IMG/VR virus record: IMGVR_UViG_3300001748_000955 | Location: 1 to 20,332 of that record | Source of the DNA: a virus | Direction: 5' to 3' (one strand) | DNA: 20,332 nt | In this document: piece by piece, positions 1 through 20,332 of the stretch | How positions within the stretch are numbered: position 1 is the first letter of the stretch | How the letters are laid out: every line of letters begins with the position of its first letter | The notes under the pieces: generated by a model | Told to the model about the DNA's origin: nothing | Databases searched by the model: none | What the model saw: the letters and a program-made list of their open reading frames with translations, nothing else | Position numbers and translations under genes: made by a program

Positions 1-854
1 CGCTCACACTTATCAGCTTCGCGATCATACCCCTGAGCACGCATCCACTTACCAACATCAGTATATGGAACACCCATACCAAGAATCATTTCGCTCTCAA
101 CATTAAACGATGGTCTATCGTATTCTGGATCATCGAAAAGTGATTGAGCAAATTCTCTGTGAGTCATTCCTCCTTTTATTTCTTCAAGAAAGTAACGATA
201 ATATGGATCGTCTTTAGAGGGAATTTTAGTATTAATTGGTTCAGACTGAAAGTTGCTCTTAGTTTCAATCAAGAGATTACGAATTGTTGGATATTCTCTT
301 TTATAATAGTTGAAAACTGGAATTTTGTTGTCAAATACGTCTCTACGCCAGAAGAAGTAAAATGTTCTTCTACGAATTTGTGGGTTACCATGAAGTAGCG
401 TCTTAGTGATGAAGATAGACATGTTATATCCAGCTTCATTAGCAATCTTATTTAGTTTTTCTCTCATGAACTTACCAACGCTTGTAGCGAGAGCCGGAGC
501 ATTTTCACCCCAAAGAACTTTGGGACGAATTTCGTTCAACACCATGTGTGTAGATTTTTCCATCCACTGGTTATTCTGATTATGTTCACCATAGCTTGAA
601 TGGTAACTGCTCAAACCAGCGCAAGGACAGACCGAAGAAACTACATCTACGTTTTCGAAAGTTTTCGGAGCATTTTCTGAATCGAGTATATGATAAGGAA
701 TGTTATAGCCATTCTCCTTATAATGATTGATAAGATGTTTCTCGTTATCAGTGAATCCTGAGTAAGTAAGAATATATTTAGGTTTAGTACCATATACTTT
801 ATCCGAAGCAAGGACTTCTCCGCCAATAAGCGGTATAATAGCAGCATGATCCAT
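1..854 (-). CDS. C5-cytosine DNA methyltransferase-like protein (partial, C-terminus beyond left edge)
   Basis: My translation of the minus strand from ATG at 854 stays open to base 1 (284 codons, no stop). It has the ordered motifs of C5-cytosine DNA methyltransferases: a catalytic Pro-Cys (CPCAGLSSY, Cys78), the Glu-Asn of motif VI (GENAP, about 116-120) and the motif VIII basic block (PQIRRRTF, about 158-165). The SAM-binding N-terminus is less typical (IIPLIGGEVLAS near residue 6). The family transfers a methyl group from SAM to C5 of cytosine through a covalent Cys intermediate. The start overlaps the stop of the upstream gene by one base (TAATG), so it is the last visible gene of the modification operon. 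C5 methylation is odd in a phage that also encodes a dCMP hydroxymethylase. The target-recognition region and C-terminus are not visible, so specificity and activity are open. Confidence 0.8.
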   Translation of the reverse strand, partial: MDHAAIIPLIGGEVLASDKVYGTKPKYILTYSGFTDNEKHLINHYKENGYNIPYHILDSENAPKTFENVDVVSSVCPCAGLSSYHSSYGEHNQNNQWMEKSTHMVLNEIRPKVLWGENAPALATSVGKFMREKLNKIANEAGYNMSIFITKTLLHGNPQIRRRTFYFFWRRDVFDNKIPVFNYYKREYPTIRNLLIETKSNFQSEPINTKIPSKDDPYYRYFLEEIKGGMTHREFAQSLFDDPEYDRPSFNVESEMILGMGVPYTDVGKWMRAQGYDREADKCE

Positions 855-1972
855 TAGTCGAACAGAGCCTCCAATTCTTTTCTTTGTACACTCTTATCGA
901 GTGGATGATTATCATATAAGCATTCTTTTTGTGCTTTTGCAAGGGCTGCTAATTCTGAAGTGCTCATTCCTTCAATTTTAGCGATCGTATTTCCAACATA
1001 TACATCTCCGTAAATAGCACCTTCTTTGTCTGAGCAAAGAAGAATTGATTGTACGTCTGCTACTTGTTGAACACGCGATCTCCACCAACCAGAACCTTCG
1101 TGATAGTAGGTCGGCATCAAACATCCCCAGTTCTGATTGTAAATTCTACACATGTCTGGTTCTTTTACGCGATAAGTCTGTATGCCCTGTGTCTGCTTTG
1201 TTTCTCTACGAGGACCAAAGTTCTTGTGTGGCCAAGTCAGAGTTTGTTTATTGAACCAACTCATAGTTTTGCTCTGTACGATAGAAGAGAAAATCCAGCA
1301 ACGTTCTTTTTCTTCTGGAGCAATAACTGTCTCTTCTTCGCCAAAGAAGTCCATAATACCGCGATCTTCACCATAGTTGTTTTCTGGACAACGATTAAGA
1401 TTGTACGGGTTTGGATTGTATCGAATGATTTCACCATTCCAATTTAAACGAAACTTTGAGTTATCACCACCAGCGAAGGCGCAGAGCATCAGTTTGTTCT
1501 TTTTCTGATTTACGATTTCGCAACCTTGGATAAAGATATCAATATGATTTCCAAGTTCTTCAATTGGAGTATTTCCGCAATAAAGATCTGCGAGATACTT
1601 GTTTGTGTGGTAGTTAAGGAAAGGCTCATTGCGATGTTCTTCGAGGTTCTTCTTATAAACCTGAAATGAATAAGCAACTTCAGCAACCTGCCAGTCATCG
1701 TTTCCAAGAATAGCATCAGGCCGTGCTGTCAGCGCATAAAGCGCGTCAAACGCATAGTGGCTAAAAGATTTTACAGAAGCAAGATAGATAATAACCTTGT
1801 CGTAACCAGAAAGATCTTCGCCAATAGATACAGGTCTTTGATCAATTTCATGGCCCATGTCTTCTAAACACCGTATGAGCGAATAATGCGAATTGAGAAT
1901 TTTAAGTTCTTTTGTAAGAAAATAGTCTCTTGTGCACTGCTCTTTATTGAACCCTGTAATTAAAATTTTCAT
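854..1972 (-). CDS. Putative glycosyltransferase, possibly beta-glucosyltransferase-like
   Basis: A 372-aa protein starting MKILITGF, a Rossmann-type first strand. A second strand-like stretch follows near residue 57 (GYDKVIIYLASVKSF). The C-terminal part (about 300-360) has an Arg-rich turn (WWRSRVQQVADV) followed by a helical tail, resembling the donor-binding domain of GT-B enzymes. By eye the overall pattern (MKI start, DYDxLIV-like strand, Arg before a helix near the C-terminus) recalls T4 beta-glucosyltransferase, but identity is low and I cannot confirm it. Its place between a clear GT-B glycosyltransferase and a C5-methyltransferase-like gene, in one operon with dCMP hydroxymethylase, supports a role in modifying DNA bases. 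GGAG lies about 7 nt before the ATG. It could instead be an unrelated phage-specific protein. Confidence 0.5.
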   Translation of the reverse strand: MKILITGFNKEQCTRDYFLTKELKILNSHYSLIRCLEDMGHEIDQRPVSIGEDLSGYDKVIIYLASVKSFSHYAFDALYALTARPDAILGNDDWQVAEVAYSFQVYKKNLEEHRNEPFLNYHTNKYLADLYCGNTPIEELGNHIDIFIQGCEIVNQKKNKLMLCAFAGGDNSKFRLNWNGEIIRYNPNPYNLNRCPENNYGEDRGIMDFFGEEETVIAPEEKERCWIFSSIVQSKTMSWFNKQTLTWPHKNFGPRRETKQTQGIQTYRVKEPDMCRIYNQNWGCLMPTYYHEGSGWWRSRVQQVADVQSILLCSDKEGAIYGDVYVGNTIAKIEGMSTSELAALAKAQKECLYDNHPLDKSVQRKELEALFD

Positions 1973-1984
1973 AATGCGTCTCCA

Positions 1985-3064
1985 TTATATGAAGAATGAA
2001 GTCAAATCTTTAGACTCATTCTTGTAGTTATCAATAGTTTTATCAACAATATTTTCTATATTAGACTTCCATCTTTCAACAGAATGTTTTTCTTTTGTTC
2101 GTTCTGAGATTTCTACACGTTCCTCGAAAGAAACTTTCTTAAAATCTCGTACAATTTCTTCAAGTTCACCGGGTTTAACCGTGGTTTTTACCTTGACTAT
2201 ATCCCTATTTATTGCCGGAATACACTCCGAAGCGTGAGTTTCTGAAGAATTTGTAACTAAAATTGTTGGTAATCCATGTGCAAGAGCTTCAAGAGCAGTA
2301 ATACCCCAAGTTTCTGATGGACAAGTAGAAATATAGCAACTTGCTTGAGACATCTTTTTCATTGTTTCGATATAGCTAAGACCGCGAATTACTTCGTTCG
2401 GAGCTTCCCAATGTAAGTTTTCTTCGTGATATTTTTTGTGTTCGCCATACAACAATTCAGAAACATAGCTCGTAAGAACGATATTGTGAAGACCAGAGTT
2501 TTTAAGTTTGTTGTGCATCCAAAATGGGTTTTTAGTTTTATCGGTTCTACCAACAGTCACGGCGTCATATTCTGCTTCTGCTACAACTTCAGTTCCATGG
2601 CTAAACGAAGAATTGATGAAACCACCATTCAAATCAAGAGGTTTACTTTCTACTCTTCGTGATAGTTTGTCCATACCCTGCCATTGATGTTCGCTCACCA
2701 TGGAAAGGGTTCCATTCTTAGAAAGAAACTCTTGCATAGATTTTACATGACCAAGTTTAGAAATACCACCGGCACCAGTATGGCTAATCCAAAGGATAGG
2801 AACTTTCACTACGGCTTGTAGTTTAACAGTGATCGGGTCATTGTCATAATTTACAATGATCACATCAGGCTGGTGATGATCGGCTGCAGCAGAGATTAAG
2901 TCTGTGACGCGTCTCTTCTTTCTATCTTCGTCTGTAAAATGTACAGGGATTACATTATCAAAGTTTTGATATATCAATTGTGCAAAACGTTCTATCCCGC
3001 CAATTACAACAGGATCAGAAATTTTAATATTGTTACGAGTAAAATATGGAAGAAGTATTTTCAC
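1985..3064 (-). CDS. GT-B glycosyltransferase (GT4-like), probable base-modification enzyme
   Basis: A 359-aa protein. The N-terminal Rossmann half has an acceptor-side glycine loop (IGGIERFA, about 21-28). The C-terminal half carries the retaining GT4 signature: E251, seven residues, E259, then AHGLP (about 250-267), which binds the nucleotide-sugar donor. The family moves a sugar from a nucleotide sugar to an acceptor. Here the likely acceptor is hydroxymethylcytosine in phage DNA, because the gene sits in the hydroxymethylase operon; that is inference. The start is GTG at 3064-3062, giving a GTGA overlap with the upstream TGA, so translation is probably coupled. The stop is 12 nt before the next gene. 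T4 alpha-glucosyltransferase is the closest functional analogue I can suggest. A role in modifying surface glycans cannot be excluded. Confidence 0.8.
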   Translation of the reverse strand: MKILLPYFTRNNIKISDPVVIGGIERFAQLIYQNFDNVIPVHFTDEDRKKRRVTDLISAAADHHQPDVIIVNYDNDPITVKLQAVVKVPILWISHTGAGGISKLGHVKSMQEFLSKNGTLSMVSEHQWQGMDKLSRRVESKPLDLNGGFINSSFSHGTEVVAEAEYDAVTVGRTDKTKNPFWMHNKLKNSGLHNIVLTSYVSELLYGEHKKYHEENLHWEAPNEVIRGLSYIETMKKMSQASCYISTCPSETWGITALEALAHGLPTILVTNSSETHASECIPAINRDIVKVKTTVKPGELEEIVRDFKKVSFEERVEISERTKEKHSVERWKSNIENIVDKTIDNYKNESKDLTSFFI

Positions 3065-3714
3065 TTAGTCGCCTCATATTGTCTTCGCCATTCGCCATAG
3101 TCATTTTCTAAAAGAGCCCAATGCAGTTTAGTAGTTTTTTCAAAATTTAAAATTCTACGATCCCAAATAACCCATGCATAGGCGATCATGCCACCAGTTT
3201 GATCTTGTTTTTCTACGGGTTCTACGTGACCTTGATCGAACTTAACTCTATCGCTCAAAAATATAATATCACTTGGTGGGTAATTTGTAAACAGCTTATT
3301 TCGTTTTTTTCCTTCAAGGAACGTCAAACGAACAAACATTGCTACATAAGGATATTCTTTTACTGCCTTTTCGGCAATTTTTCGAGGAAGATCTTTATGG
3401 TACGGCGGATTTGTAACCAATCCATCATAGCCTTCCGGTCTTTCTAAATCAAGTACGCCGACGCCGGTCGCAACTTCCACGAGATTGTTGTCATATTCAT
3501 TTAAGTCGAACGATTTTACATTATGACCGTTTCGTTCGAGTTCAATCGAAATATTACCTCGGCCTGCGCAAGGCTCGACAACATTCTGTGGAGGGCGAAC
3601 GTATTTACATAAAATATAAGTTGCTAATGGTGGTGTAGGATAAAAATCGTTTTTTCTTCGATTGCTATCTTGTTTATTCACTCCAACGTAAATGTCTTTT
3701 AAGTTATTTGCCAT
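3061..3714 (-). CDS. DNA methyltransferase, NPPY type (adenine-N6 or cytosine-N4)
   Basis: A 217-aa class I SAM-dependent methyltransferase. It has an N-terminal DFYPTPP element common in phage methyltransferases (about 23-29), SAM motif I (VEPCAGRG, about 46-53), an acidic residue after the next strand (SFDLNE, about 68-73), and catalytic motif IV TNPPY (101-105). NPPY marks amino-methyltransferases of the N6-adenine/N4-cytosine class, which flip the base and methylate the exocyclic amine. There is no obvious separate target-recognition domain, so it resembles short Dam-like or orphan phage enzymes. Its first 11 nt overlap the end of the dCMP deaminase gene, and its stop overlaps the GTG of the glycosyltransferase. 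It probably adds a second layer of modification for restriction avoidance. The target site is unknown. Confidence 0.78.
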   Translation of the reverse strand: MANNLKDIYVGVNKQDSNRRKNDFYPTPPLATYILCKYVRPPQNVVEPCAGRGNISIELERNGHNVKSFDLNEYDNNLVEVATGVGVLDLERPEGYDGLVTNPPYHKDLPRKIAEKAVKEYPYVAMFVRLTFLEGKKRNKLFTNYPPSDIIFLSDRVKFDQGHVEPVEKQDQTGGMIAYAWVIWDRRILNFEKTTKLHWALLENDYGEWRRQYEATK

Positions 3715-4168
3715 CTAATTCACAATCAATATATTCATATTCTACGCCAGCTTCACGAAACATCGTTTCGCTAAGCTTAAATGATTCTATCCAATATTCT
3801 GGATAATCCTTTTGAGGCATTACAACTCTTTTGATACCTACTTGAATTACGCCTTTTGCGCAATCTGAACAGCAGGGAAGTCCCCAGATATAAAGTGTAG
3901 CGCCATCAAGAGATACACCGTTATAAGTAGCGTTGTAAATCGCGTTCATTTCAGCATGTACGATGAATTTATATTTATGCTCTTTTATTTGCCAACGAGG
4001 TTCAAGATCTTCTCTTACTCCTCGAGCAAAACCATTATATCCTTGAGAAAGTACTTGGCCTTTATGACCAATAGCAACAGCTCCAATTTTTGAACTAGTA
4101 TCTTTAGACCAAGTAGATACTTCTTTTGCTAATTTGAGATATCTAATATCCCATTTATTGCTTTTCAT
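3704..4168 (-). CDS. cd: Deoxycytidylate (dCMP) deaminase
   Basis: A 154-aa protein with the zinc-dependent cytidine deaminase core: HAE at 71-73 (zinc His plus catalytic Glu) and the zinc cysteines C100 and C103 in CCSDCAKG. The N-terminal SKIGAVAI and GYNGFARG segments are typical of dCMP deaminases. It converts dCMP to dUMP, feeding dTTP synthesis and balancing dCMP use with the hydroxymethylase upstream. It is somewhat shorter than T4 Cd as I recall it (about 190 aa). I chose the ATG at 4168 because it overlaps the gp42 stop (TGATG) and has GAGGAAC 7 nt upstream; a TTG one codon earlier is possible. Residues before the first zinc cysteine read LPC-C rather than SPC, a minor variation. Confidence 0.9.
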   Translation of the reverse strand: MKSNKWDIRYLKLAKEVSTWSKDTSSKIGAVAIGHKGQVLSQGYNGFARGVREDLEPRWQIKEHKYKFIVHAEMNAIYNATYNGVSLDGATLYIWGLPCCSDCAKGVIQVGIKRVVMPQKDYPEYWIESFKLSETMFREAGVEYEYIDCELDGK

Positions 4169-4824
4169 CAAATCAGTTCCTCTATAAACTTAAAGTGACG
4201 TTCATAAACGTGAAGAGATGAAGCTGTCCAAATTAGATCACCAACTTCAATACGAAGTTCATTGGCGAGCTTACTTTGAACATACCTCGCCCACGCGAAA
4301 TCATTGTTCGCGCCGAATACCGCATCGTTGCTCCTGAGAATGTAGTGAGAATGAAGTTTGTCATTACGAATATGAAAAGAATTTGCAAAGGTGCAAATAA
4401 AGTCATTCATTTCGTCTTCACGATAATCGTCATGTATGGATGGGCGATTATAAATCATCGCGGCCCGGCGGCTATTTGGATTGCGAAGAAGTTCAGTTAG
4501 TACATTTGTATACTGATTTCCGTTCTTCTCGGAAAAGATTAAGTATCCATAATTGGAATTAATGCGCCCGTGTTTTGACGAAACGTCTTTCCAGATTTGT
4601 GGCGTATCTCCAGGAATATCTTCGACATAAAGAGACTGAGACTCGTACCAAGCAAGCTCGCGCGCGATATAGTCATAATTCGGTTTTCGAATAATCCAGT
4701 CCTCGTCAACTAAAAAAGACTCGCCGATGATTTCCACGGTTTTTACGCCGGTTTTATCAACGACAAAGTCTTCGTCTTTATATTTTTGAATAAGTTTGTT
4801 TCGAATATCACTTACTGTTTGCAT
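4168..4824 (-). CDS. 42: dCMP hydroxymethylase (T4 gp42 family)
   Basis: A 218-aa thymidylate-synthase-fold enzyme with strong resemblance to T4 gp42: DKTGVKTVEIIG near residue 23, INSNYG at 88, RRAAMIYNRPS near 119, catalytic Cys144 (DFICTF), RSNDAVFGANND (164-175) and SLHVYERH (203-210). Asp175 stands where thymidylate synthase has Asn, the substitution linked to choosing dCMP over dUMP, so this is a hydroxymethylase and not a thymidylate synthase. It uses methylene-tetrahydrofolate to make 5-hydroxymethyl-dCMP. It is shorter than T4 gp42 (246 aa) at both ends. It is the first gene of the modification operon, with AGGAG 5 nt before the ATG and a consensus early promoter 45-73 nt upstream. 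The phage therefore probably carries hydroxymethylcytosine or a derivative of it. Confidence 0.95.
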   Translation of the reverse strand: MQTVSDIRNKLIQKYKDEDFVVDKTGVKTVEIIGESFLVDEDWIIRKPNYDYIARELAWYESQSLYVEDIPGDTPQIWKDVSSKHGRINSNYGYLIFSEKNGNQYTNVLTELLRNPNSRRAAMIYNRPSIHDDYREDEMNDFICTFANSFHIRNDKLHSHYILRSNDAVFGANNDFAWARYVQSKLANELRIEVGDLIWTASSLHVYERHFKFIEELI

Positions 4825-4868
4825 AAATTCTCCTATGAAAATTGGGAAATGTCTAGACTCTTGATCTT

Positions 4869-4897
4869 ATTATATAATATTGGATCATCAATGTCAA
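4869..4897 (-). promoter_or_regulatory. Early sigma70-type promoter of the modification operon
   Basis: On the minus strand: TTGACA (4897-4892), 17-nt spacer, TATAAT (4874-4869), a perfect match to the E. coli consensus. It points at gp42 with predicted transcription start near 4862. The site lies inside the reading frame of the broken nuclease-like gene upstream. Confidence 0.88.
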
Positions 4898-5045
4898 CAA
4901 GAACTTTGAAGTCTTTTTTGAGAAATCCAGCAATAATTCGACGATCCTTCGAGTTCTGAATGTTTGAAAAGCGTCTTTGTCCAGGCGGAGGAGCTTCCCA
5001 GATCTTGATTGTTTTTTCGCCCAGTCGATCTGAAGGATTTTGAAC

Positions 5046-5132
5046 TATGAACCAGCGATCTGCGTTGAGACATTTATCAAGCTGATTTTATGAACCAGCG
5101 ATCTGCGTTGAGACATTTATCAAGCTGATTTT
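5046..5132. repeat. Exact tandem direct repeat, period 43 bp, two copies
   Basis: Bases 5046-5089 and 5089-5132 are identical over 44 nt at an offset of 43, with no mismatch. Each copy begins TATGAACCAGCGATC and ends AAGCTGATTTT. The duplication shifts the frame of the gene on the minus strand. Confidence 0.97.
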
Positions 5133-5383
5133 GTGCAACACGCCCATCTCGTTGTGTAATGGGAACAGTGAAAGCTTGCATAACAGTTCCTCGAGTTGCA
5201 TAAGACTTGAAGAAGTGATAAAGTGTCATAAACTTGACTTCACAGCGCTTACCATCAATCAGCATGTCCATAGTACCATCAAATGGATCTGTCGCCATTT
5301 CTACTACAGATCCATTCTTTTCAAAATAGTCCTTTACGACTTTTTCAGCAAAATAGCCAAGTGATATAATTTTTTCTTTGACA

Positions 5384-5812
5384 TTATACGTCATAATGTT
5401 GAATTCCTTCGTCGTAATCAGTAAGAGTGGTTACAGTAATAGTACTATCTTCTTCATTGAATTCAAATTGAATTTCGCGCTTGCGATTGAAAATATCATG
5501 TTCTATCGACTGGCCAGGAATTTCACCGCGACAGTACGAAACGAAAAAGCTCGCATAGTTGATTAGGTCTTTTGCGCTATCTTCAAGACTTTCAAAATTA
5601 GGATCATATCCATCAGTTTGCATAGCTTCCATGACAGACTTCATACGAAGCATCTTAGCGTGCATGATGTCGTGAATTGTAATCACACCATTCGGATAAT
5701 AGTCTGCTTGTTTCACTGTAGAGTTTGGATTTTGATAGTCGCGGCTCTTTCGTAGCTGCAAGTCCATACATTCTTGTAGTACCTTGACGGATTCTGGATT
5801 TTCGATTGTCAT
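5384..5812 (-). CDS. DUF1599-like (nucleotide-modification-associated) protein
   Basis: A 142-aa, mostly helical protein. The stretch LRKSRDYQNPNSTVKQADYY (about 20-39), followed by a helix with KMLRMKSV and an ESLEDSAKDLINYASFF segment (about 85-101), resembles the DUF1599 'nucleotide modification associated' family, which is thought to be related to all-alpha MazG-type pyrophosphatases; this is by eye. It sits just upstream of the hydroxymethylase operon, which suits a role in nucleotide-pool control or base modification. I chose the ATG at 5812 because AAGGAG lies 6-7 nt upstream; a longer frame starts inside the GIY-YIG gene and lacks such a site. Its last 11 nt overlap the next gene. The exact reaction is unknown. 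Confidence 0.7.
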   Translation of the reverse strand: MTIENPESVKVLQECMDLQLRKSRDYQNPNSTVKQADYYPNGVITIHDIMHAKMLRMKSVMEAMQTDGYDPNFESLEDSAKDLINYASFFVSYCRGEIPGQSIEHDIFNRKREIQFEFNEEDSTITVTTLTDYDEGIQHYDV

Positions 5813-5822
5813 ATCATCTCCT

Positions 5823-6323
5823 TTAAATTCTGGAACCGTGTCCTTTGATTTCAAAATTGAGCTTTGGTTTATAAGTTTTAATTGTTGCAGACTCGAGCAG
5901 TTCTGACATGCCTCCAATATTAAACTTATTAGTATTGATATATTTTATCACAACATTTATAGTTTGTAAACCGTTTTCTTTCATATACTCACGATACTTT
6001 CGCCCTGACGACTCAGAGTCAATCTTCATTTGAAAACTATCACGATGCTGTTTTTGGCGCGTGTGAATAGTTTGTGTTTTAGAATCAGTCTTTCCTACAT
6101 AAAGCACATCATCATTATATAACCAAATATAGACACCTTTAGCTTCACTCGCTAAAAACTTTTTGCCTCTTTTTTCTATCCCAGAGTCAGAAGTGATGTA
6201 GGATTGATCGGGAGTAACAGTCAAGGTAACGTTACCATAGGTTTCAGCCTCTTTCCAATAAGAGTCTATGTTATCATATACATACTTTTCAAGCAGATCA
6301 GCTAAATTAGATAAAGCAGACAT
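5823..6323 (-). CDS. Free-standing GIY-YIG endonuclease
   Basis: A 166-aa protein. Residues 63-80 carry the GIY-YIG core as GVYIWLYNDDVLYVGKTD. A basic helix with Arg and His follows (IHTRQKQHRDSF), then the catalytic Glu in SELLESATI (about 146) and Asn in KLNFEI. The N-terminal 60 residues are unassigned. In T4-like phages such free-standing GIY-YIG genes (Seg family) act as homing endonucleases; repair or host-degradation roles are also possible. ATG 6323 is preferred because AGGA lies 9-13 nt upstream; the ATG at 6332 is only 2 nt from the same site. It lies between small unknown genes and the DUF1599-like gene, with tight spacing on both sides. Confidence 0.82.
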   Translation of the reverse strand: MSALSNLADLLEKYVYDNIDSYWKEAETYGNVTLTVTPDQSYITSDSGIEKRGKKFLASEAKGVYIWLYNDDVLYVGKTDSKTQTIHTRQKQHRDSFQMKIDSESSGRKYREYMKENGLQTINVVIKYINTNKFNIGGMSELLESATIKTYKPKLNFEIKGHGSRI

Positions 6324-6616: not shown

Positions 6617-6765
6617 AGACTAACTCCTTCGGTTTCAAAACCGTTTGAATAACGATAAAATACAACCCAGTATTCTTTTACGGGTTGTATAAAGTTCATC
6701 ATTTCACGGGAGTTTGAAAACTCCCGTTCTGAACCGCTCGCCATATGTTTCGCTATTAATTTCAT
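6613..6765 (-). CDS. Small hypothetical protein (50 aa) behind an early promoter cassette
   Basis: A 50-aa product starting MKLIAKHMASGSEREFSN. I chose the ATG at 6765 because it follows the promoter-leader cassette directly, with GAAAGGA about 8 nt upstream; a longer in-frame extension would run back through the promoter. There is no recognised domain; the C-terminal half (VKEYWVVFYRYSNGFE) looks like a beta hairpin. Its stop overlaps the next gene's start (ATGA). Confidence 0.65.
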   Translation of the reverse strand: MKLIAKHMASGSEREFSNSREMMNFIQPVKEYWVVFYRYSNGFETEGVSL

Positions 6766-6793
6766 AATAGGTCCTTTCGTTTTACCTATTATT

Positions 6794-6822
6794 AGTATAT
6801 ACTGATTCGGATCAAATGTCAA
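6794..6822 (-). promoter_or_regulatory. Early promoter cassette B
   Basis: Minus strand TTGACA (6822-6817), 17-nt spacer, TATACT (6799-6794), then a leader containing TAATAGGTAAAACGAAAGG directly before the 50-aa gene. The leader is shared with the cassette at 17713 on the plus strand, and the -35 and spacer with the one at 7563. Confidence 0.85.
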
Positions 6823-7051
6823 CCCAGTTTTTGAATTTATTTCGAAAAGCTCTCTCATCCTGTGGATGTTCAAAAAAGAACGTGTCCTCATAGACGTTTG
6901 TATACTGACGATGTACCCACTGAGAAGAGTGCATCTGGACCTTACAGAAGTCCTTTGCTTGACTTCGCAGATCGCTATGGATGCGAACCGGATGGTTATG
7001 TCCAGATCGCATCCAGCGCATTTTATGGTCGGAAATTTCTAACGGTGTCAT
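6812..7051 (-). CDS. Hypothetical protein (79 aa)
   Basis: A 79-aa product, MTPLEISDHKMRWMRSG at the start and FFEHPQDERAFRNKFKNWV near the end, rich in His, Arg and aromatic residues. Not recognised. The ATG at 7051 overlaps the upstream stop (ATGA), which makes it preferable to an earlier TTG. The last codons (GTT GAC ATT TGA) form the TTGACA box of the next early promoter, so the gene end and promoter are fused. Confidence 0.65.
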   Translation of the reverse strand: MTPLEISDHKMRWMRSGHNHPVRIHSDLRSQAKDFCKVQMHSSQWVHRQYTNVYEDTFFFEHPQDERAFRNKFKNWVDI

Positions 7052-7338: not shown

Positions 7339-7505
7339 TATGCAGCTACCTTTCTCATGTCATAAAGTGCAATCACCGAAACGTCACCGTTAGCCAAAGC
7401 CCAGTTATAGGCATTTGAGTATGATTGATCTTTGGTCTCGCCGTGTAAGCTCATTTCGCGGCGCTCATCGTAACGGTCGAAGTATTGAAAGATGATCTTA
7501 AACAT
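7338..7505 (-). CDS. Small hypothetical protein (55 aa), first gene of early unit
   Basis: My own translation: ATG at 7505, 55 codons, TAA at 7340-7338, start MFKIIFQYFDRYDERREMS and end LYDMRKVAA. GAAAGGA sits about 10 nt upstream, at the end of the early promoter leader. The stop overlaps the next ATG (TAATG). The mix of strand and helix looks like a real small soluble protein; no family is recognised. Confidence 0.7.
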   Translation of the reverse strand: MFKIIFQYFDRYDERREMSLHGETKDQSYSNAYNWALANGDVSVIALYDMRKVAA

Positions 7506-7534
7506 GGTAGGTTCCTTTCGTATTACCTATTATG

Positions 7535-7563
7535 ATACTATACCGATTCGGATCAAATGTCAA
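7535..7563 (-). promoter_or_regulatory. Early promoter cassette A
   Basis: Minus strand TTGACA (7563-7558), 17-nt spacer, TAGTAT (7540-7535), then a leader with AATAGGTAATACGAAAGG. The -35 box and spacer start (TTGACATTTGATCCGAATC) are identical to cassette B. It begins 5 nt after the stop of the MazG-like gene and drives the small-gene run. Confidence 0.82.
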
Positions 7564-7568
7564 CTGTA

Positions 7569-7988
7569 TTATGAAAGAATACCAGAAAGTTCGCCGTGAT
7601 TTCCTTTGTGACTAGGAGGCTTCCAGCCTGACGGCTTCAACAAATCAGGCAAACCGAATTTGTTGGGTCGGCCGGGCTTTACTCCAGGTTCTTTAGCCAT
7701 GTTTGCTTCATATACCGCGTCCCAAGCAGCTTTGACATCCACACCCATAATATCAAGTGTACCGATGGCAAAGACGATGCTATCAATCAATCCATCTACG
7801 ACTTCTTCAGGATTGCTTTGAACGAGAGCTGCAGACATTGTTTCACCGAGTTCCTCATACTGCATCATAAGACGAAATGCAATAAACTTTCGCATCAAGT
7901 CTTTATCGTGCTTGTTATTTTCAAACCATTCACGCACACCAAACTTATTGTGCATCATGTATATATCGTGTGCCATATCAGCCGACAT
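7569..7988 (-). CDS. MazG/PRA-PH-like all-alpha NTP pyrophosphohydrolase
   Basis: A 139-aa protein with the all-alpha NTP-PPase pattern: FRLMMQYEELGETMSAAL (about 38-55, metal-binding EExxE-type helix) and EEVVDGLIDSIVFAIGTLD (about 61-79, second acidic helix), followed by DVKAAWDAVYEANMAK and a Gly/Pro-rich tail. The family hydrolyses (d)NTPs to monophosphates and pyrophosphate. In a hydroxymethylcytosine phage such an enzyme could help remove dCTP, but specificity cannot be read here. I chose the ATG at 7988 because GGAAGGA lies about 8-10 nt upstream; an earlier in-frame Met lies deep in the preceding gene. It overlaps that gene by 11 nt and ends just before early promoter A. Confidence 0.78.
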   Translation of the reverse strand: MSADMAHDIYMMHNKFGVREWFENNKHDKDLMRKFIAFRLMMQYEELGETMSAALVQSNPEEVVDGLIDSIVFAIGTLDIMGVDVKAAWDAVYEANMAKEPGVKPGRPNKFGLPDLLKPSGWKPPSHKGNHGELSGILS

Positions 7989-15779: not shown

Positions 15780-16433
15780 CTATTTATATTTGCAGTTATC
15801 CATATGCCATCTAGCCATAGAATTACCTCTACCTTCCTTTCCGCAGTGTGGACATTTATATTCCTTAAATTTCATACTTTTTCTTGGCTTGCTGAGATTT
15901 TTTCTCCATTCTTCAGAACGAATTCCGCGTCCTTCTGGCCAAATTTTTTTACCTTTCATTTTCTTGCTGTGTTCTAATGAAGCTCTTTTTTGATTTTCAG
16001 TGCGATTTTCTCCTTTGAGCTTTTGCGTCGAATTATCGCTCATGGTATAAGTTGATCCTAATTCTCTTGGAATTTTTCTGTGTTTTTTAGGATCCAAACC
16101 TCTTCTGATATAACCTTCATCACTCTGAAAATTTACATATTCTGTTTGATTTTCATAAATATTTTTATCAATACGTACTAGATCTCCTTTAGGGCCAACT
16201 GCAGTTATTGAATTTTGTAAATGATGCGTTCCTTTATTTACCTTTTCTTTCTGCAGTTCGCCTCCCACGAAGGGATGATCTGGAAATGTTTCTTTATCCC
16301 AAGTAGCAAACCCATTGGATAGACTTTCATCTCTTATTTTCTGTTGAAATTCTGCGTTAATTTCGGCTAATGTTTCTTGTGGTAAACTTTCCACATTCAG
16401 AAACTCGCTTATTACGTCTTTATAAATAATCAT
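15780..16433 (-). CDS. Homing-endonuclease-type protein with NUMOD-like and zinc-finger C-terminus
   Basis: A 217-aa protein. The C-terminus has a C2HC finger, CPHCGKEGRGNSMARWHMDNC (C-x2-C-x12-H-x3-C), as found at the end of phage homing endonucleases. Before it lies a Lys/Arg-rich stretch with NUMOD3-like repeats (SLEHSKKMKGKKIWPEG). The N-terminal part has an NKGTHHL element seen in phage HNH and terminase-linked proteins. I see no complete HNH or GIY-YIG active site, so it is a divergent endonuclease, a DNA-binding remnant or a degenerate homing gene. It sits between uvsY and uvsW, a typical intrusion site near core genes, and is visibly more A+T-rich than them. It has its own late promoter and a structured leader; AGAGGAG precedes the ATG. 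Confidence 0.65.
   Translation of the reverse strand: MIIYKDVISEFLNVESLPQETLAEINAEFQQKIRDESLSNGFATWDKETFPDHPFVGGELQKEKVNKGTHHLQNSITAVGPKGDLVRIDKNIYENQTEYVNFQSDEGYIRRGLDPKKHRKIPRELGSTYTMSDNSTQKLKGENRTENQKRASLEHSKKMKGKKIWPEGRGIRSEEWRKNLSKPRKSMKFKEYKCPHCGKEGRGNSMARWHMDNCKYK
15781..15788 (-). promoter_or_regulatory. T4-type late promoter of uvsW
   Basis: TATAAATA on the minus strand, 33 nt before the uvsW ATG and overlapping the last codons of the upstream homing-type gene. It matches the T4 gp55-dependent late -10 element exactly. Confidence 0.82.
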
Positions 16434-17551: not shown

Positions 17552-17716
17552 ATGTCGGATCCACTTCTAGCCATCATACTGATTATATCATTTGTAATCT
17601 TGATCCGCGGTACTCTGCTGGTCTTCAGTCAGAACTTTTGGCTCGCACTGCTGATGTTGTTTCTGCTGCCTCCGCTTTTGTTCTTCTGGATTGTTTTGAA
17701 AGGAATTTTTGGTTGA
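17552..17716 (+). CDS. Small two-helix membrane protein (54 aa)
   Basis: My own translation: ATG 17552 to TGA 17714-17716, starting MSDPLLAIILIISF. Two very hydrophobic stretches, residues 5-25 (with one Arg near residue 19) and 30-49 (FWLALLMLFLLPPLLFFWIV), are joined by a short loop with VFSQN; the C-terminus is KGIFG. It has its own early promoter and a ribosome site (AAAGGTAGGA). The size and layout recall small phage inner-membrane proteins such as T4 Imm (superinfection exclusion) and Pmp3-type proteins, but no family can be assigned. The stop codon lies inside the TTGACA box of the next promoter. Confidence 0.75.
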   Translation: MSDPLLAIILIISFVILIRGTLLVFSQNFWLALLMLFLLPPLLFFWIVLKGIFG

Positions 17717-17741
17717 CAAACGCAGAGAATCAGTATATACT
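17713..17741 (+). promoter_or_regulatory. Early promoter cassette C
   Basis: Plus strand TTGACA (17713-17718), 17-nt spacer ending AGAATCAGTA, TATACT (17736-17741), then a leader with TAATAGGTAAAACGAAAGG identical to cassette B and AACCTACC as in cassette A. Confidence 0.87.
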
Positions 17742-17771
17742 AATAATAGGTAAAACGAAAGGAACCTACCT

Positions 17772-17972
17772 ATGATGACCTTCAACGAATACAACGAAGC
17801 AACCAACTCGATCAAGCCCGTTATGATCCACAAGTCATTCAACGGCTACATGTTGTATACTCCTGAAGGTCGTCTGCTCGATGAGTTTACATCCGCAGGT
17901 CCTTTCGTTGACTTCGATTCCGCAAAGCGGAATGCTGAGATGAATGTTGGCGTCAGCGTCAACTTCATCTAA
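17772..17972 (+). CDS. Hypothetical early protein (66 aa)
   Basis: A 66-aa product, MMTFNEYNEATNSIKPVM at the start, then a strand-turn-strand (GYMLYTPEGRLLDEF) and a helix with DFDSAKRNAEMN. No known family. It starts just after cassette C; the second ATG (17775) could also be used. The first ten residues look somewhat like T4 capsid-targeting leaders but lack the (L/I)-x-E cleavage site, and the gene has an early, not a late, promoter, so I do not call it a head protein. Confidence 0.7.
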   Translation: MMTFNEYNEATNSIKPVMIHKSFNGYMLYTPEGRLLDEFTSAGPFVDFDSAKRNAEMNVGVSVNFI

Positions 17973-19278: not shown

Positions 19279-19332
19279 ATGAGTAATGATCCTTGCGACG
19301 ATGTGACTCATTGGATTGGAATGTTGATTTGA
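19279..19332 (+). CDS. 17-codon leader ORF before the phosphomannomutase
   Basis: ATG at 19279, 17 codons (MSNDPCDDVTHWIGMLI), TGA at 19330-19332. It carries the strongest ribosome site in the area: AGGAGG, 8 nt before the ATG. The stop overlaps the TTG start of the phosphomannomutase as TTGA. It most likely works as a coupling leader that brings ribosomes to the weak TTG start; the peptide itself may have no function. Confidence 0.55.
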   Translation: MSNDPCDDVTHWIGMLI

Positions 19333-20033
19333 AAAAGTATATTTTTGATGTAGATGGTACTCTTACGCCAAGTCGTAAACCTATAGAGCAAGATTTTAGA
19401 GATTACTTTCAAGATTTTGCTTCAAAACATAGTGTGTATCTTGTAACAGGAAGCGATAGAAAAAAGACACTTCAGCAGATTGGTCAAAAAATATATGACC
19501 TCTGTGAAAGAGTTTATCAGTGTTCTGGTAACGATGTTTGGGAAAAAGATCAACACATTAGATCTTCGGAAATTGAAATACCGTGCAATATGTACGAAGA
19601 TTTTACTCGATTTTTTAGCGAAAGTAACTTCAAGATAAGAACTGGAACTCATCTAGACAAGAGACCTGGTCTAGTAAACTTTTCCATTATAGGCCGTAAT
19701 TGTACTCAGTCAGAGCGACAAGAATATATTGAATATGATAATGCCTTTCAGGAAAGAGAACACATAGCTGCGGCACTTCGACGAAAGTATTCGGATTTTG
19801 ATATACAAATTGCCGGTGAAACTGGAATAGATATTACGCTCAAAGGAAAGGATAAGTCTCAGATCATAAAAGATTTTGATACGAGTGATCAACTTCATTT
19901 CTTTGGTGATAAGATGAATCCAAACGGAAACGATTATTCTCTTGCTCAGAGAGTACTCGAACGAAACAGATTTGTATACAACGTCAAGTCTTGGGAAGAA
20001 ACATGGGAACATCTAAAAAAATTGTCGGTCTGA
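19329..20033 (+). CDS. Phosphomannomutase, eukaryote-type HAD family (PMM2-like)
   Basis: A 234-aa HAD phosphotransferase close to eukaryotic phosphomannomutase (human PMM2, 246 aa). Nucleophile and acid are Asp7 and Asp9 in FDVDGTLTPSR; TGSDR follows near residue 43; the substrate loop reads NFSIIGRNCTQSER, paralleling the PMM2 segment with its two key arginines; GDKMNPNGND near 197 is the Mg site. The family interconverts mannose-6-P (or glucose-6-P) and the 1-phosphate, the precursor of nucleotide sugars. I chose TTG 19329 because the family start (KKYIFDVDG) begins there and it overlaps the leader stop; a TTG at 19293 is possible. It overlaps the next gene by 31 nt. It probably supplies sugar-1-phosphate for DNA or another glycosylation. 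Confidence 0.85.
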   Translation: MKKYIFDVDGTLTPSRKPIEQDFRDYFQDFASKHSVYLVTGSDRKKTLQQIGQKIYDLCERVYQCSGNDVWEKDQHIRSSEIEIPCNMYEDFTRFFSESNFKIRTGTHLDKRPGLVNFSIIGRNCTQSERQEYIEYDNAFQEREHIAAALRRKYSDFDIQIAGETGIDITLKGKDKSQIIKDFDTSDQLHFFGDKMNPNGNDYSLAQRVLERNRFVYNVKSWEETWEHLKKLSV

Positions 20034-20332
20034 CATGTAGTACTTTTGACTTGTTGCACGCGGGTCACATTCAAATGTTACGTGAAGCTAAATCGCATTG
20101 TGATTATTTGATTGTCGCATTACAGGTTGATCCGAGTGATGATCGCCCAGAAAAGAATGCTCCAGTACAGACTTTGGTAGAAAGATATGTACAACTCTCG
20201 GCAGTTAAATATGTTGATGAAATCGTCACATATCAGAACGAAAGAGACTTGGAAGATATTCTTGAGATGTTTCCAATTGATATGCGCATTCTTGGTGAAG
20301 AGTACAGAGACAAAGACTTTACTGGTCGCGAA
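20003..20332 (+). CDS. Cytidylyltransferase-like nucleotidyltransferase (partial, C-terminus beyond right edge)
   Basis: My translation from ATG 20003 stays open to the end (110 codons). It begins MGTSKKIVGLTCSTFDLLHAG, with the HxGH nucleotide-binding motif (LLHAGH) after the first strand, then DYLIVALQVDPS, a RYVQLSAVKYVDEI helix and MRILGEEYRDKDFTG, which matches the layout of TagD glycerol-3-phosphate cytidylyltransferase and the RfaE/HldE nucleotidyltransferase domain. The family joins CTP or ATP to a phosphorylated sugar or alcohol, giving CDP- or ADP-linked products. GGAAG precedes the ATG, which lies inside the phosphomannomutase gene, so the two are probably translated together. Substrate and full length are unknown. 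Confidence 0.82.
   Translation, partial: MGTSKKIVGLTCSTFDLLHAGHIQMLREAKSHCDYLIVALQVDPSDDRPEKNAPVQTLVERYVQLSAVKYVDEIVTYQNERDLEDILEMFPIDMRILGEEYRDKDFTGRE

Follow-up and report, generated by a model that had tools for sequence, protein, structure and literature searches.

Six closely packed genes at the edge of a phage genome fragment raise the question of which DNA modification they make together, and whether the sugar enzymes among them act on DNA at all. The fragment, IMG/VR virus record IMGVR_UViG_3300001748_000955 (positions 1 to 20,332, called the window here), is a 20,332-base piece of a T4-like phage genome and is contained, with almost no difference, at 162430-182718 of the 194,645-base genome G001, which is probably complete because its ends repeat over 77 bases. 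The six minus-strand genes were confirmed as encoding a gp42-type dCMP 5-hydroxymethylase, a dCMP deaminase, an NPPY-type methyltransferase (open reading frame 4, ORF4), a GT4-like glycosyltransferase (ORF3), a predicted DNA glycosyltransferase (ORF2), and a C5-methyltransferase-like protein (ORF1). The operon is read, with a probability of about 0.8, as a cassette for the glycosylation of 5-hydroxymethylcytosine (hmC), in which ORF2 would add the first sugar and ORF3 perhaps a second, with ORF1 as their partner, for protection against nucleases. The DNA of this phage probably carries sugar-decorated cytosine.

Synthesis of hydroxymethylcytosine

The gp42 of the window is 52% identical to T4 gp42 and combines the nucleophile Cys144, the cytosine-specifying Asp175, and the overall similarity expected of a T4-type dCMP hydroxymethylase. 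Cys144, Asp175, Tyr92, and Ser90 align with C148, D179, Y96, and S94 of T4, in agreement with an earlier reading made from the sequence alone (the sequence-only reading), which had equated Asp175 with the T4 residue. RB69-type gp42, now reported to make 5-hydroxy-dCMP (PMC13390438), is only 26% identical to the window enzyme, against 52% for T4, and assignment to this type was ruled out. Judged by its aligned residues, gp42 is a true dCMP hydroxymethylase, which would convert dCMP into 5-hydroxymethyl-dCMP, and hmC is very likely the product in phage DNA. The dCMP deaminase, kept after gp42 in most related loci, would by its close homology help drain the dCMP pool, letting hmC enter phage DNA. 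In many cassettes, the deaminase and ORF2 genes are separated by one for a small uracil-DNA-glycosylase-like protein, a match below the cut-off (for example L034:5744-6130).

ORF2 resembles T4 beta-glucosyltransferase

ORF2 is assigned to phrog_14998, a family of unknown function with relatives in at least 438 IMG/VR stretches, and neither its sequence nor its profile found anything useful among PDB sequences. An AlphaFold2 model built on an alignment of 40 relatives (pLDDT 90.6, pTM 0.89) has T4 beta-glucosyltransferase (BGT) as its best PDB match (Foldseek E 6.7e-7; VIA-align Z 18.8 over 304 residues, 12% identity), followed by T4 alpha-glucosyltransferase (AGT), second by Z (16.7), with the best other GT-B enzymes at about 16. 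A profile of 26 diverse ORF2 members matched the BGT-family profile (E 4.7e-6, probability 86%); the ORF2 profile was too weak against the single T4 BGT sequence and became significant once family profiles were used. In the family alignment, R300 and Q303 align with the UDP-site residues R269 and E272, respectively, making both candidate donor-site residues. Asp93, in a DDW motif, is invariant in all aligned members and is likely the counterpart of the BGT catalytic Asp100, at a position that automatic alignments do not cover reliably. As a distant BGT relative, ORF2 would place the first sugar on the hydroxymethyl moiety of hmC within DNA; Asp93 would probably serve as the base, and Arg300 and Gln303 would belong to the nucleotide-sugar site. 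The sequence-only reading had called this enzyme not clearly of a known family, which holds for curated families, but structurally it stands nearest to T4 BGT and AGT and occupies a position where relatives carry known DNA glucosyltransferases. The same reading had looked to glycan or lipopolysaccharide pathways for structural matches that would speak against a DNA role; the best matches are the T4 DNA glucosyltransferases.

An exchangeable glycosyltransferase slot

The strongest functional argument for ORF2 acting on DNA is the exchange of genes at its position. In roughly 80 related contigs, ORF2 has gp42/deaminase on one side and ORF1 on the other. A search starting from ORF1 yielded 77 loci, 71 of them with an intact gene directly upstream, which proved to be ORF2 (14), AGT (PF11440; 12, with a representative at E 3.6e-73), TAGT (PF20691; 13), a member of phrog_13881 (24), a GT4-like gene (4), or, in the rest, another sugar enzyme; the IMG/VR contigs are partly redundant, and these locus counts are not independent events. 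gp42 was present on 8 of the 12 larger parent contigs tested. Because related phages keep AGT or TAGT there, the position of ORF2 is a DNA-glycosyltransferase slot. AGT and TAGT are absent from the whole G001 genome, and a sequence search of G001 found no T4 BGT-like sequence, although no positive control responded in that search.

The phrog_13881 family, also of unknown function, occurs at L167:2948-3979 and in 23 other loci, as well as in Aeromonas phages 25 and 44RR2.8t. By profile it matches the BGT N-terminal domain (E 3.4e-8), which makes it a candidate second BGT-like family of DNA glycosyltransferases.

Sugar supply and the clade of the window

Sugar-supply genes accompany many ORF2 relatives. 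UDP-glucose 4-epimerase (GalE) and UDP-galactopyranose mutase (UGM) flank them in gp42 cassettes (L032-L034, L121, L127-L129), a TET-GalE-ORF2-UGM cassette is found in most of L133-L151, and phage C48C1 has the order TET-ORF2-UGM. UGM also adjoins an ORF2 relative in Aeromonas phage 25, Erwinia FBB1, and DSL-LC01; in Gualtarvirus its place beside the ORF2 relative is taken by an arabinose-5-phosphate isomerase and an NTP-transferase. In Aeromonas phage 25, UGM and the ORF2 relative both carry an annotation of non-conservation in phage 44RR2.8t, and the adjacent phrog_13881 gene is common to the two phages. The parsimonious reading is that the sugar moved by ORF2 relatives onto a hydroxymethylpyrimidine is a furanose, in most cases galactofuranose, and the relatives that combine GalE/UGM with gp42 or TET/JBP are predicted to form a galactofuranosyl-DNA pathway; no paper on galactofuranosyl DNA was found in the literature searched. 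ORF2 and UGM relatives also occur twice (L153, L154) on one 186-kb contig, NVXB01000001.1, from a Hyphomicrobiales metagenome-assembled genome, which is probably a phage contig binned with the bacterial genome and assembled with a repeated end.

The window falls within a supported ORF2 clade of 23 without UGM, a clade that lost the mutase. Locus L129 closely resembles the window in gp42 (77%), ORF1 (67%), and ORF4 (64%) but carries a differing ORF2 (46%) with GalE and UGM, a pattern that looks like an exchange of the sugar module. G001 lacks UGM and any GalE-like match near the cassette. The sugar is predicted to be galactofuranose in the GalE/UGM relatives, whereas the donor in the clade of the window may be host UDP-galactofuranose, UDP-glucose, or another nucleotide sugar. 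At 19293-20332 the window encodes a eukaryotic-type phosphomannomutase followed by a cytidylyltransferase (from 19991 on, continuing in G001), the latter about 70% identical to a gene that L137 and other loci carry within their TET-GalE-ORF2-UGM cassette.

Alternative readings of the sugar enzymes and of ORF1

Several observations weigh against a DNA-glycosylation cassette. ORF2 has no Pfam or NCBIfam match, GT-B folds are so widespread that the fold alone is no proof of a DNA substrate, and in the literature searched no chemistry or enzyme assay was found for this phage or any ORF2 relative. UGM is absent from the large contigs of the window clade, including G001, in which the only GalE-like match is a weak epimerase well away from the cassette. 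In C48C1 neither PF00145 nor PF00303 was found, so that host-made 5-methylcytosine (5mC) or thymine could be the substrate of its TET/JBP enzyme, and the acceptor in the TET group could be hydroxymethyluracil instead of hmC. Additionally, a cluster near 107-120 kb of G001 (L054), with a pfkB kinase, a cytidylyltransferase, an NAD-dependent epimerase, and a DXD glycosyltransferase, looks like surface-sugar synthesis. This cluster would suit a reading in which ORF2, ORF3, and the GalE and UGM of relatives are host-surface glycan enzymes lying beside gp42 by chance, for instance adding galactofuranose to lipopolysaccharide and so blocking superinfection. The usual task of UGM and GalE is to supply galactofuranose for the cell wall or the O-antigen, the function assigned to the UGM of Agrobacterium phage Atu_ph04 (PMC6630229), and ORF3 is by sequence an ordinary GT4 enzyme. 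Such a coincidence is nevertheless very improbable, given that dozens of contigs keep ORF2 in its place between gp42/deaminase and ORF1, that known DNA glucosyltransferases fill the same slot, that ORF2 is tied to two unrelated hydroxymethylating routes (gp42 and TET/JBP), and that its best structural matches are T4 DNA enzymes. Within the hmC-glycosylation reading, ORF2 might use UDP-glucose like T4 BGT, so that the window phage would make ordinary glucosyl-hmC; the nearest structures are UDP-glucose enzymes, and the cassette of the window clade has neither UGM nor GalE. This donor appears unlikely, since, beyond the clade, the nearest relatives are linked to UGM almost without exception and UGM presence changes only twice on the ORF2 tree, against a shuffled mean of 16.8. 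The donor-loop residues 299 and 301, S299/V301 in the window clade and A299/P301 in both UGM groups, would also fit an altered donor, but as a single lineage event they are only a hint.

The role of ORF1 admits more than one explanation. The full protein (410 amino acids) matches PF00145 at E 3e-18, only from residue 34 on, and motifs IV (CPC), VI (ENAP), and VIII (QxRxR) are nearly invariant in 163 relatives. Motif I reads PLIGGE in place of the canonical FxGxG, and the acidic residue of motif II is replaced by S/T-Y (SY in the window). ORF1 adjoins the glycosyltransferase slot in related loci and accompanies five or more glycosyltransferase types downstream of gp42; its persistence as the glycosyltransferases are exchanged suggests a role that serves all slot enzymes alike. 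With its catalytic cysteine intact and its cofactor motifs atypical, ORF1 would work with whichever DNA glycosyltransferase is present. That it is an ordinary C5-methyltransferase acting on leftover unmodified cytosines or host DNA, giving a genome with both glycosyl-hmC and 5mC, has a chance only slightly short of even: the PF00145 match, the intact PC, ENAP, and QxRxR motifs, and the best PDB profile matches, which are C5-methyltransferases, speak for it, whereas the first 33 residues lie off the family profile, motifs I-II are atypical, fully hmC-substituted DNA offers no substrate, CpG is not depleted (0.997) and leaves no trace of 5mC, and the gene is linked to glycosyltransferases rather than to a cognate restriction enzyme. 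C5-methyltransferases can react with 5hmC in vitro, and ORF1 might instead be a repurposed enzyme that transfers no methyl group but flips 5hmC or binds it covalently, for example to assist glycosylation or select its sites. The constant partnership with at least five glycosyltransferase types and the retention of the catalytic cysteine alongside diverged motifs I-II are in keeping with this rather improbable role, while a lone homologue in cyanophage S-TIM5, near thymidylate synthase, has no glycosyltransferase neighbour. The sequence-only reading had counted two DNA methyltransferases in the set. The C5-like gene has indeed proved to be a constant partner. Multi-layer methylation, however, is doubtful: once cytosine is fully hydroxymethylated, no C5 position is left free, and motifs I-II are atypical.

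ORF3, ORF4, and the assembled pathway

ORF3 scores just above the PF00534 cut-off (27.5 against 26.4 bits), and its AlphaFold2 model, from a shallow alignment, is poor, with a pLDDT of 48.7. It occurs in 19 IMG/VR loci, and those examined hold the same cassette position, which elsewhere is taken by a GT8-like enzyme, GalE, or an unrelated GT4 enzyme (TET cassettes such as L137). No relation was detectable between ORF3 and the GT4 enzyme of the L137 cassette, and the two, both in that slot, may be independent. By analogy with TAGT in T2/T6, ORF3 is plausibly a second-sugar transferase; as a retaining GT4 enzyme, it would probably extend the first sugar to a disaccharide, a step that is weakly inferred.

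ORF4 probably acts as a DNA N6-adenine or N4-cytosine methyltransferase, judging from its NPPY-type sequence. It is present in L129, L207/L208, and L229/L231 and absent from nearly all other related cassettes, so it was rejected as a core cassette part and is better regarded as a methyltransferase in its own right, a variable passenger. The sequence-only proposal of a multi-layer modification made as one unit is thus strongly supported as regards cytosine hypermodification, but the NPPY methyltransferase is not built into that unit.

In T4, DNA modification protects from restriction and CRISPR nucleases, and by analogy the same purpose may apply to the cassette. A tentative wider proposal, held at less than even odds, is that ORF2 founds a group of furanosyl-DNA transferases, that phages with GalE-ORF2-UGM next to gp42 or TET make galactofuranosyl-hydroxymethylpyrimidine, that the lineage of the window changed its donor while ORF3 adds a second sugar, and that ORF1, a C5-methyltransferase fold, was recruited to hydroxymethylated DNA together with interchangeable glycosyltransferases. 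Galactofuranosyl-hydroxymethylpyrimidine is not described as a DNA base in the sources searched.

Operon layout and genome context

The compact operon claimed by the sequence-only reading is real, with its coordinates, overlaps, and gene identities borne out (Table 1). Four of the junctions between the six genes are overlaps, of 4 (or 1), 11, 4, and 1 nt, and the remaining one is a gap of 12 nt. The earlier description of six genes running from gp42 to the left edge covers the window only, because in G001 the operon extends past ORF1 into an exonuclease-like gene and then a phrog_1574 protein. The latter (G001 160528-161427; L057:528-1427) is kept in most cassettes and contains an LMFIDSDIG stretch resembling GT-A glycosyltransferases, with no Pfam family match. 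The claim that the T4 counterparts are scattered over the genome holds only in part, as T4 beta-gt and gene 42 are adjacent.

Table 1. Features of the modification operon and its upstream region in the window
Feature	Coordinates	Strand	Evidence and remarks
ORF1, C5-cytosine methyltransferase-like, N-terminal 284 of 410 aa	3..854	-	cut by contig edge; complete in G001 162051-163283
ORF2 (phrog_14998), predicted DNA glycosyltransferase	854..1972	-	structure model, family profile, gene context
ORF3, GT4-type glycosyltransferase, GTG start	1985..3064	-	PF00534 2.7e-6; EX7E motif, E251 and E259, read from alignment
ORF4, NPPY-type methyltransferase	3061..3714	-	phrog_799 1.8e-41
dCMP deaminase, 155 aa from TTG or 154 aa from ATG (4168)	3704..4171	-	PF00383 7.3e-19; phrog_174 5.3e-42
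gp42-type dCMP 5-hydroxymethylase, 218 aa	4168..4824	-	PF00303 4.9e-21; phrog_160 7.9e-56
Consensus sigma-70 promoter TTGACA-17-TATAAT	4869..4897	-	73 nt upstream of gp42
Gene upstream of gp42, shortened by 43-bp duplication	5077..5394	-	172 aa in G001, ending 8 nt before gp42
phrog_1485/DUF1599-like (nucleotide-modification-associated domain)	5384..5917	-	phrog_1485 2.2e-12; DUF1599 14.4 bits, below cut-off

The perfect sigma-70 promoter noted earlier was found again (4897-4869) and in G001 sits within the 3' end of the upstream gene. It is not a chance occurrence, because the whole G001 genome has 14 perfect sites against 0.2 expected, and the phage therefore uses host-type promoters. A near-consensus site, with one mismatch, was found in 1 of 16 relatives, namely L129. 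The phrog_1485/DUF1599-like gene, located upstream of gp42 in most related loci, is a probable upstream companion of the cassette. Bases 1-5300 of the window show no mismatch to G001; the sole difference is a 43-bp tandem duplication at 5046-5088, either an assembly error or a real polymorphism, which truncates the gene upstream of gp42.

Elsewhere in the window, a dispersed element of about 60-70 bp (6763-6833, 7503-7570, and 17706-17780, with about a dozen more copies in G001) forms a repeated promoter-plus-start module in which TTGACA-17-TATACT-like boxes are combined with the ribosome-binding sequence AAAGGA and a start codon. A homing-endonuclease-like gene (15780-16433, weak PHROG matches) adjoins uvsW.

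Comparison with known systems

T4 BGT (b-gt, 1J39/1NZD) shares with ORF2 the GT-B fold, an aligned donor-site arginine and E272 position, plausibly an invariant Asp in the strand-4 region, and a gene close to gp42 in both phages. It differs in that ORF2 is only 12-14% identical, falls outside Pfam, has Q303 in place of E272, and has many relatives linked to GalE and UGM. T4 AGT and TAGT occupy the slot of ORF2 in related phages but form separate sequence families. Phage TET-linked cytosine hypermodification, reportedly described by Burke in 2021, likewise proceeds from hydroxymethylation to glycosyltransferases, and an ORF2 relative neighbours TET in C48C1 and in most of L133-L151, whereas the window uses gp42, not TET. 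The RB69 arabinosyl-cytosine pathway (ORF003c, ORF055c, ORF53_52c; PMC6024577, PMC13390438) also joins a gp42-like enzyme, sugar-supply genes, and a DNA glycosyltransferase, but goes through 5-hydroxycytosine with its other type of gp42-like enzyme. RB69 ORF003c was rejected as an ORF2 relative after no detectable match. In Gualtarvirus, an ORF2 relative is accompanied by supply genes of the RB69 type.

In 288 of 753 phage genomes, TAGT occurs alone, with neither an alpha- nor a beta-glucosyltransferase, and these genomes probably encode undescribed transferases (PMC13216743, 2026). Two candidate BGT-like families, ORF2/phrog_14998 and phrog_13881, are named here, a sugar is predicted for many ORF2 members, and the exchangeable slot is found with a constant C5-methyltransferase-like partner. 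If these predictions are true, new sugars would be added to known DNA chemistry, restriction evasion by T4-like phages of natural waters would be partly explained, and new enzymes for 5hmC labelling would become available. As a compact unit for hmC glycosylation, the cassette is of the kind known from T4, RB69, and TET phages, equipped with an uncharacterised and widespread transferase family.

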